Translations under genes and position numbers: made by a program
Part shown: positions 46,701-51,116 of the stretch, piece by piece
Numbering within the stretch: the stretch's first letter is position 1
Layout of the letters: each line of letters begins with the position of its first letter
Notes under the pieces: generated by a model
Databases searched by the model: none
The model's input: only the letters and a program-made list of their open reading frames with translations
What the model was told of the DNA's origin: nothing
Assembly (NCBI GenBank): GCA_028285465.1
Contig: JANQPD010000052.1
Location: 1-64,000, forward strand
Length of the DNA: 64,000 nucleotides
Reading direction: 5' to 3'
Source of the DNA: Owenweeksia sp.
GTDB lineage: Bacteria > Bacteroidota > Bacteroidia > Flavobacteriales > Schleiferiaceae

Positions 46701-47727
46701 CTTACCCGATCTTTTCAAGCGGTTTTACCGGCAGGAACAGGACATGGCGCAAGGCACAGGCATCGGGCTGGCCCTGACCAAAGAGTTCGTAGAGCTGCAT
46801 CAAGGGATCATCAAAGCAAGCAGCGAGGGAGGTCTGACCACCTTTACCATCGATTTGCCTGTGCATGTTCAGGAAGGAGCAGATACGTCTGAGACCAGAT
46901 CCTTTGCCGGCCCTTCATCTCCGCTTACCACCTACACAGAAACAGCTTCTCCAAGGGAAGGTGATGATCAACAGAAGAAAGAAGACCTACCCCTGGTATT
47001 GGTGGTAGACGACAATGCCGACCTCAGGGCATTTCTGAGCGATATTTTGACACCGCATTACCAGGTGCTGCAGGCCAAGAACGGTTTAGAAGGCTGGGAT
47101 CAGGCCCGGGAGCGTATACCGGACCTGGTGGTGAGCGACTTGATGATGCCGGGGATGGATGGGAAGCAACTGTGCCATAAGCTCAAGACCGATGCCCTCA
47201 CCAGCCATATCCCGGTGATCCTGCTCACGGCCAAAGCCACTCAGGAGAGTAAATTGGAAGGTTTGGAGAAGGGAGCGGATGATTACCTGATGAAGCCGTT
47301 CAGCGGACCGGAATTATTGATCCGTGTTAAAAACCTCATCCGATTGAGGCAATTGCTGCGGGAAAAATACAGCGGGCAGAAGCTGGTGGAAATCGGACAA
47401 AAGCAGCCTGCCGATCTCGAGGATGAGTTTATGCAAAAGGTGATCAAGGTGATGGAAGCGCAAGCACACGAGGAAGATTTTACCGTGAATGTGCTTTATG
47501 AAAAACTGTTCCTGAGCCCGCGACAAGTACAGCGAAAGCTCAAAGCATTGACGAACCAAACCCCCTCCAACTTCATTCGGAAATACCGCCTCCAAAAAGC
47601 GTATGAAAAGATCTTAAGAAAAGAGGGAACGATCTCAGAAATTGCCACTTCGGTAGGCATATCCAATCTCACCTATTTTGGCAGATCGTTCAAACAAGAA
47701 TTCGGAGTTTCGCCCAGCGAGCTTTGA
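43729..47727 (+). CDS. Hybrid two-component system regulator (HTCS): beta-propeller sensor, Y_Y_Y, histidine kinase, receiver, AraC HTH
   Basis: Signal peptide; Reg_prop repeats ([40 protein letters not shown]); [50 protein letters not shown]; AraC-type C-terminus. Confidence 0.95.
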   Translation: [1332 protein letters not shown]

Positions 47728-48010
47728 TCGGGACCCCTCATTTGTCGCTTCGGGTTGATACAATATCGGTTTAGCGCGAGCTCCGAAACCGCCTGCCTTG
47801 CGACCTTTACCACCGACTTATCTACGAAATTAAAGGTTTTGCGAAAATGAAATGTTCAAAATCAAAACTATGGCATGAAGCAAGGCTTTATTAATAAGTG
47901 CAAGTAAACAGGAACCGATAATTTCGGGTTGATTCCTTCCTTGTTCCGTCAGAACAAAAGACCGCATCAGGCGAAGAACTCCACGCCATTCCAACCCGGG
48001 CGGCAATGTA

Positions 48011-48764: not shown

Positions 48765-51116
48765 GTGAAACACATCCTGGTGCTTATTGCCGTGTTCCAG
48801 CTGGGCAGTTCAGGTGCTATAGGCCAGTGTACAGAAGGAGGGTTTGATGCAATCTCAAACCCACGCTATAACCATGCATGGAACAATGATTTTACTGGTG
48901 GGAGCTCGTGGATTGGTCAGGATTTCACGGCTTGTGCTACCGGGACACTGTCTGAACTCAGGGTGTTTGTTGGCTGGCCCCCTGATATACCACAAACCTT
49001 AAACCTGTATATCTATGAGGGGCCGGATACATCAGGAAATCTGCTGGCTACGGTTCCTCGTAGCAAAATGAATTTTGTGCGAGGAGGTGGCAAACCAGGC
49101 ACTCCATCCGTAATAGACCTCTCTTCAGTAAATCCGAAGGTGAGTGTGGTGGCCGGACAACAGTATACCTTTATGTTTGATACCATTACCGATCTGGCCA
49201 CCAATTTTTATACTAATATGTTATCCTGGAATACTTATGTCGGTGGCAGTATATTCTCCAATGGAGCTCGCGTTCCTGCTGGTAGTATTAATGCACCAGA
49301 TAATGTGGATATTTTATTCGAGATCGACATTGATGTGGCTACCTCTACCTGGACCGGGAGCAGCTGGAACAACGGCACGCCCAACCGGGATGCGAATGCG
49401 ATCATCGCTTCGAGCGGATCACCCGGGGATTTTAAGGCGGTGAACCTGACCATTAACAATGGGGTGACGGTGAACCTGGGTTCCGGAGATACGGCCCTGG
49501 TCTCGGGAACACTCACCAACAACGGCAATGGGTTTAGCGGCTCTGGGGTGATTGACTTTTACCCGGGTGGCGCAAACGCAAAAGTGGCCGAGATAAAAGG
49601 GAACGCCTTCAATTGGGGAGGCATCACCCATATTGACACCGGCTATTCCCTGGCCAGCAGCCATTCCCTGACTACTAACGGACTATTAACCCTTTCGGCT
49701 AGCTCAGCCGGTTCTTACGGGGTATTGCTGGGTAATGGTACCGTTACGGATAATATAAAAGCCGAAGCCTACCTGGACCTGGCCGGAGGCAGCAACGATG
49801 GCCGCTATTACCACCTGGGGGCTCCTTTTAACAATGCTACGCTAAGTGATTTTAATGAAGGGCAAATCATGGTTTCGGCCAACACCCAACAAGGTACGGC
49901 CTGGGAGTGGGATGCTGCCAATGCCTCCTGGGTGCCGGCCGGATCGGGCAACACGTCCAACGACCGGCTGGCGTCAAACGCGGTGATAGGAAAAGGTTAC
50001 GCATTATACGCAGGAAGCAATACCTATGGTACCTTCCTGAGAAAGGACCCCGGGGCACTTACCTTAACCGGAACCCCCATTAATAGTGATGTAACCATCG
50101 CCCTGTCTTACAATGATGGCCAGTCCGGAGGTTCTTTTGCCGGAGGCACCAACACCGCAGCCACCGAAGGCTGGAACTTTTTGGCCAACCCCTACCCCGC
50201 CCAACTGGATTGGGACGTGCAGGACGATCAGCTGCCCAACGGCCTGAACAGTACCGTCTACACCTGGAACGGCGCTAACTATACTTCCTACGTCAACGGG
50301 GCTTCCACTAATACCGGTACCCGCTACATCGCCCCCTTCCAGGGCTTTTTTGTGCAACTGTCTACCAATACAACCCCTAACTTTGCCTTTGATGCGGATG
50401 CGCGTGTTGTATCCGGGCAAACGGTTGAGCTCAACAAAACCACTACTGCAAACCCCCAACTGGACGGGATAAACCTGGCGGTAGCTACCGCCAATGGGGG
50501 AGCGCGGGATGATATTTACGTAGGTTTTGAAGCGCTGGCCACCGTGGGTTATGACCGGGAGTGGGATGCGCAAAAACTCCTCAACCCGGAGGGTGTACCC
50601 AACCTTTCGGTGAGCCTGGGGGGTGAGCTGTACTCCATTTGCCGGGTACCCTATAGCGGCCCCTGGTCTTTCCCGCTTAAACTGGACTATGCCACAGACG
50701 GGGAGGCCATGAACATCACAGTAGATCAAACGAACCTACAGTCTTTCGGGCAGGTAACTTTGGAAGACCTCAAGACCGGCAGTACGCATGACCTTACACT
50801 CGGGGTCTACAACTTTACCTATGACAAGGGCTACGGGCCACAGCGCTTTATCCTGCACTTTGGCAAGGCCAACATAGGCCTGGAGGAAACCGCAGGAGAG
50901 TTGCCCCTCTTTGCCTACGCTACCGAACAGGGGCTAACCGTAGAGTTGGGCACCCTGGAAGATGCCCGCATCAGCGTGTACAACCTGGCGGGTCAGTTGG
51001 TGGCTTCCCGCCAGGCGAGTAAAGGACCAGTGCCCATACCCCTGGAAAAACACGGGGTGTACCTGCTAAGGGTAGAAACCGGCAAACAAACCGAAACCTT
51101 TAAGATAATCCGTTAA
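48765..51116 (+). CDS. Large secreted protein with T9SS type A sorting domain (adhesin-like)
   Basis: Signal peptide from GTG: VKHILVLIAVFQLGSSGAIGQ; Thr/Asn/Gly-rich body; C-term ARISVYNLAGQLVASRQASKGPVPIPLEKHGVYLLRVETGKQTETFKIIR; ORF is open to 48420. Confidence 0.85.
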   Translation: MKHILVLIAVFQLGSSGAIGQCTEGGFDAISNPRYNHAWNNDFTGGSSWIGQDFTACATGTLSELRVFVGWPPDIPQTLNLYIYEGPDTSGNLLATVPRSKMNFVRGGGKPGTPSVIDLSSVNPKVSVVAGQQYTFMFDTITDLATNFYTNMLSWNTYVGGSIFSNGARVPAGSINAPDNVDILFEIDIDVATSTWTGSSWNNGTPNRDANAIIASSGSPGDFKAVNLTINNGVTVNLGSGDTALVSGTLTNNGNGFSGSGVIDFYPGGANAKVAEIKGNAFNWGGITHIDTGYSLASSHSLTTNGLLTLSASSAGSYGVLLGNGTVTDNIKAEAYLDLAGGSNDGRYYHLGAPFNNATLSDFNEGQIMVSANTQQGTAWEWDAANASWVPAGSGNTSNDRLASNAVIGKGYALYAGSNTYGTFLRKDPGALTLTGTPINSDVTIALSYNDGQSGGSFAGGTNTAATEGWNFLANPYPAQLDWDVQDDQLPNGLNSTVYTWNGANYTSYVNGASTNTGTRYIAPFQGFFVQLSTNTTPNFAFDADARVVSGQTVELNKTTTANPQLDGINLAVATANGGARDDIYVGFEALATVGYDREWDAQKLLNPEGVPNLSVSLGGELYSICRVPYSGPWSFPLKLDYATDGEAMNITVDQTNLQSFGQVTLEDLKTGSTHDLTLGVYNFTYDKGYGPQRFILHFGKANIGLEETAGELPLFAYATEQGLTVELGTLEDARISVYNLAGQLVASRQASKGPVPIPLEKHGVYLLRVETGKQTETFKIIR

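Follow-up and report, generated by a model that had tools for sequence, protein, structure and literature searches.

On balance, the analysed window (64,000 nt of Owenweeksia sp. contig JANQPD010000052.1) probably holds a local regulatory locus in which a hybrid two-component regulator (HTCS) would act on two 21-bp direct-repeat operators, O1 and O2. Each would open a cassette of operator, promoter, about 250 nt, hairpin leader and surface gene; the O1 cassette appears to have lost its gene and to have received a templated fill from the regulator gene, HTH'. The duplicated unit is operator, leader and surface gene rather than regulator and surface gene. The features concerned are listed below.

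43729–47727, forward strand: HTCS regulator with propeller sensor, kinase, receiver and AraC-type HTH (Pfam domains)
47741–47790, forward strand: operator-like element O1 (leave-one-out matrix score 31; shuffles at most 9.4)
47999–48222, forward strand: leader 1, a decayed copy with the left hairpin arm lost (82% to leader 2; fold z +0.34; in model R2)
48223–48236, forward strand: probable opening codons of surface gene 1, otherwise lost, GGTTTGATACAATC (13/14 identical to 48841–48854 of the intact gene)
48240–48327, forward strand: HTCS fragment HTH', a copy of 47553–47640 (2 differences in 88 nt); similarity runs to 48340, into O2
48328–48377, forward strand: operator-like element O2, 5' of the intact surface gene (matrix and model searches)
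48393–48396, forward strand: TTTG at a fixed distance 3' of O2, a possible −33 element (same place in 7/8 elements)
48582–48658, forward strand: terminator-like hairpin of leader 2, then six T (−37.3 kcal/mol, z −3.2)
48765–51116, forward strand: T9SS-secreted surface protein with a presumed GTG start, open frame reaching back to 48420 (TIGR04183, 37.1 bits)
51130–51312, forward strand: small PID-CTERM-like protein (NF046080, 15.4 bits, cutoff 26)
51402–51553, forward strand: decayed T9SS C-terminal domain of another surface gene (0/2000 shuffles reach either score; profile match)
51554–51640, forward strand: degraded copy of the junction stop-AAAACCACA-start of the small gene (DNA alignment to 51050–51160, 0/500 shuffles)

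The sequence-only reading had placed a full HTCS gene ending at 47727, and Pfam confirmed a six-domain hybrid regulator (Reg_prop, Y_Y_Y, HisKA, HATPase_c, Response_reg and AraC-type HTH in one protein). The domain order is that of the Bacteroides HTCS regulators of polysaccharide utilisation loci (PULs). The subfamily, defined by more than 50% identity, has three members in the same genome and one in genome G017, with no others among the 36 genomes searched. Four loci were compared: the window, C55 (L018) and C47 (L019) from its own genome, and G017 (L055), an Owenweeksia MAG. The window HTCS is 61% identical to that of C55 and 57% identical to those of C47 and G017. The Owenweeksia sp. MAG contig JANQHO010000038.1 carries the same locus. 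Surface proteins follow the HTCS at all four loci, and HTCS–T9SS neighbour pairs recur, as had been anticipated, at three loci in the genome and one in G017. Unlike in the Bacteroides PULs, the genes next to the HTCS encode surface proteins (T9SS, S74-domain and dockerin-like); the neighbouring proteins that were listed or scanned for the window, C55 and C47 included no recognised SusC/SusD pair, so these loci do not qualify as PULs. Distant HTCSs in other genomes lie in PUL-like contexts or beside a protein of about 395 aa; the one on C7 of genome G013 has SusC/SusD-like neighbours as judged by size and signal sequences only.

The repeat blocks described earlier are real and far beyond chance by blastn. 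The leader copies (48011–48215 and 48588–48798) are 82% identical over 211 nt (E 5.5e-56), the HTCS fragment (48240–48340 against 47553–47653) 96% identical (E 2e-42) and a third block (48329–48375 against 47742–47788) 87% identical (E 2e-10). That third block, at 47741–47780, had been taken for part of the HTCS 3' end. It is instead non-coding, spans about 50 nt (47741–47790 and 48328–48377), lies past the HTCS stop, with the whole stretch 47741–47808 being outside the coding sequence, and is operator-like: O1 is located 14–29 nt behind the stop codon and O2 sits 5' of a surface gene.

The element was found elsewhere as an ungapped alignment of about 50 nt at L018 4504 and 5978 (C55), L019 4888 and 5338 (C47), and L055 7148 and 7610 (G017), giving exactly two per HTCS locus at 4/4 loci. 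When each of the eight elements was scored with a matrix made from the seven others, the result was 30–61 bits, compared with a maximum of 9.4 in shuffled window sequence. A search with the eight-element model returned six matches in the genome (two per HTCS) and two in G017; these matches arise by construction, and what is informative is the leave-one-out scoring together with the absence of the element elsewhere in this genome and from the other 86 of 88 family genomes. The sole element-like match in the other searched relatives was one 30-nt partial.

Within the element GTCG is repeated 21 bp apart. Predicted HTCS motifs, including the predicted operators of Bacteroides PULs, are direct repeats near target genes with a mean tandem-site spacing of 21 bp (PMC3878776), and at the sequence level the element has this form. 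Its best self-match shift is also 21 bp, narrowly (0.375 vs 0.36 at 16). The shared spacing, the per-locus occurrence and the absence elsewhere point to the element as the probable operator of the HTCS, bound via the AraC-type domain. Elements of one locus are usually more alike than elements across loci (the window pair is identical at 42/50 positions), a pattern that would arise if operators keep pace with the regulator of their own locus. Unlike in the Bacteroides systems, exactly two operator-like elements accompany each regulator here, one of them directly behind its own stop codon. The O1 tail reads TTTA where other copies have TTTG, and no −7 promoter box was recognised behind the elements.

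In the proposed mechanism, the HTCS would sense a ligand and its AraC-type domain would bind both operators, O1 directly behind the HTCS stop and O2 ahead of the surface gene, each starting one cassette. In the intact O2 cassette, transcription would start behind O2, cross the terminator-like hairpin in the 5' UTR and continue into the T9SS protein and then the small PID-CTERM-like protein. The O1 cassette, left without its gene, would have undergone decay of leader, hairpin and TTTG, and an 88-nt copy taken from the 3' end of the neighbouring HTCS gene would have filled its junction, with ATTG(C/T)C(A/G)CTTCGG as the similar sequence at which it meets O2. Of this picture, we infer operator binding, promoter, attenuation, templated insertion and the surface role; the repeats, the distribution of the element, the hairpin prediction, the remnants and the unequal divergence are observed.

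The leader was present in three copies in the genome, two in the window and one at C55, each 225–260 nt behind an element; the genome contained no further copy and none without an element upstream. It had been tied to the adhesin, but the C55 copy precedes an unrelated S74-domain protein gene and is thus independent of it. Strong hairpins are predicted for leader 2 (z −3.2) and the C55 copy (z −3.7) but not for leader 1, whose z is positive, and the T run after the hairpin is confined to the window copies. At 48582–48658 the G+C-rich hairpin and T run have the make-up of an intrinsic terminator or attenuator, in what would be a 5' UTR. Covariation among the three sequences is weak, with one pair changed on both sides. 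The leader as a coding N-terminal extension was rejected, as substitutions fall 13/8/10 by codon position with no periodicity; nevertheless, both indels are 3 nt, a point against the non-coding reading. At C47 and G017, the gap separating O1 from O2 shows about 85% conservation across the two genera and contains another strong, conserved non-coding hairpin (L019 5045–5150, z −3.5; L055 7295–7395, z −5.4). No conserved small ORF was found in this gap, and the hairpin is possibly a small RNA or an attenuator.

The surface protein scored above the TIGR04183 cutoff of 23 and shares the C-terminal sorting domain of T9SS type A proteins; PF18962 (Pfam) gave 21.7 bits, under its cutoff of 27. Unlike in those proteins, its N-terminal part matches no family: domain scans recognised only the sorting domain and no adhesive domain. 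The fold model had a mean pLDDT of 47, too low for structure search. A paralogue at C55 is 74–78% identical. The small protein stays below its cutoff and lacks the PID residues, so it is not a PID-CTERM protein as defined. In the genome, small genes with the ending ...PFGFVELLIGAGALYGGKK... also stand behind six other T9SS genes (L018 14271, L018 16826, L019 9461, L020 3502, L020 16561 and L021 7088); they are a PID-CTERM variant without the PID residues, and those scanned fall below the NF046080 cutoff.

Remnants of surface genes flank the intact cassette. The best local match of GGTTTGATACAATC is the start region of the intact gene, with a weaker match to O1 (12/14). Downstream, the intact junction recurs as a decayed C-terminal domain with stop, AAAACCACA and gene start behind it, so the surface module was multiplied and lost at this locus. 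The O1–O2 interval of the window holds leader 1, the 14-nt gene-1 match and the HTCS fragment. At C55 the same interval holds an intact gene for a 379-aa S74 protein. Downstream of the HTCS, no fragment of it was found at C55, C47 or G017, leaving the window copy as the sole one in four loci. The intact gene between O1 and O2 at C55 and the lack of HTCS fragments at the other three loci identify operator, leader and surface gene as the repeated unit. The earlier idea of a collapsed tandem array therefore holds for the surface-gene modules, with remnants on both sides, and is not supported for the HTCS. The other three loci, each with two elements, one HTCS and no fragment downstream, speak against joint duplication of regulator and surface protein.

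Regulator–target pairs do duplicate as units elsewhere, with another regulator. In genomes G013 and G027 a TPR-HTH regulator (its HTH a weak match) and a surface-protein homologue form tandem pairs, two of which are orthologous on both sides; in these arrays, and on contig C71 of the window's genome, the regulator adjoins a homologous surface gene and the pairs are co-duplicated. They differ from the window locus in regulator class and in having neither HTCS nor operator element.

The age of HTH' bears on how the O1–O2 interval arose. HTH' differs at 2/88 positions, the element at 8/50 (Fisher p 0.005) and the leader at 31/205 (Fisher p 0.0009). Being significantly less diverged, HTH' does not seem to share the age of element and leader, and from these counts it looks younger than their duplication. 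The spacers (47809–48010 and 48396–48587) have no detectable similarity, scoring at the shuffle mean, so the repeat is not a uniform tandem copy. A simple 680-bp tandem duplication was rejected on the same unalignable spacers and unequal divergence, with which any single whole-block duplication fails and which a later templated insertion explains. The HTCS copy ends at about 47640–47653 and joins the element at 48328 via similar sequence (HTCS GAAATTGCCACTTCGG, junction GAAATTGTCGCTTCGG, O1 CATTTGTCGCTTCGG). It lacks the stop and the final HTCS codons (from about 47641), so there is a second junction beside the one counted earlier.

The main rival to templated insertion is a second HTCS that selection preserved until not long ago. 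From two full tandem modules of HTCS, operator, leader and surface gene, one deletion would have taken surface gene 1 together with the bulk of HTCS 2, and another the end of HTCS 2 up to its operator. We give this perhaps one chance in a handful or slightly better. The block order, HTH' directly adjoining O2 and the surface-gene remnants on both sides fit it; moreover, both HTH' changes are synonymous transitions, which mildly fits a once-coding copy (two neutral transitions would both be synonymous with a chance of about 0.12). Nevertheless, it requires a module duplication plus two deletions, a second HTCS or fragment is absent from C55, C47 and G017, two operators are present even where there is a single HTCS, and spacers that cannot be aligned sit beside an HTH' with so few differences. 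Templated insertion at the deletion of gene 1 is the most likely origin of HTH'.

The flanking remnants could also reflect nested insertion, with HTH', O2, leader 2, surface gene and small gene put into, or replacing the middle of, an older surface gene, now represented by leader 1 and 51402–51553. A 5' remnant upstream and a 3' remnant downstream of the intact unit agree with this, but an origin of both in one gene cannot be demonstrated, and O2 is present at all other loci and need not have been brought in; we regard it as improbable. Misjoined or collapsed real tandem copies are conceivable in a draft genome of 99 contigs. The junctions, however, lie at short imperfect matches rather than exact shared words of assembler size, and leader and fragment have no extra copies elsewhere in the genome, making such an artefact very unlikely.

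The HTCS locus as a whole is bracketed by tRNA-end scars, as in tRNA-associated islands. At 43177–43445 the 3' end of a tRNA-Asn (GCCCAAGAGGGAGAGC) recurs in further copies, with hairpins, behind the tRNA itself, and a 110-nt, 93% copy lies at 52785–52893. Inside these brackets is a 50-nt direct repeat, 92% identical (43541–43590 and 52611–52660). No integrase was seen between the scars and no tRNA near the other HTCS loci. Frame-broken remnants of a secreted protein (TYVVANSGNWTNANTW...) and a YdeI-like C-terminus were recognised by eye at 51908–52610; one piece was scanned and gave no Pfam match. Farther downstream, a histidine kinase gene is convergent with a LytTR response regulator (55200–57175), close to two further T9SS proteins (53399–54745 and 57428–61378).

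A wider reading, which we hold only tentatively and as rather unlikely, is a surface-protein switching locus: one sensor and two fixed operator–leader cassettes, behind which surface genes of different kinds (T9SS, S74 fibre-like, dockerin-like) would come and go. If so, the cell would vary its surface while the signal stays constant, and the hairpin leader would add attenuation. The locus also illustrates how the remains of a truncated regulator may be misread: the conserved part here is the probable operator and the duplicated unit the target cassette. The HTCS subfamily would gain a precise, testable operator, predicted from sequence to occur twice for each regulator; its likely targets are surface proteins and not glycan uptake.
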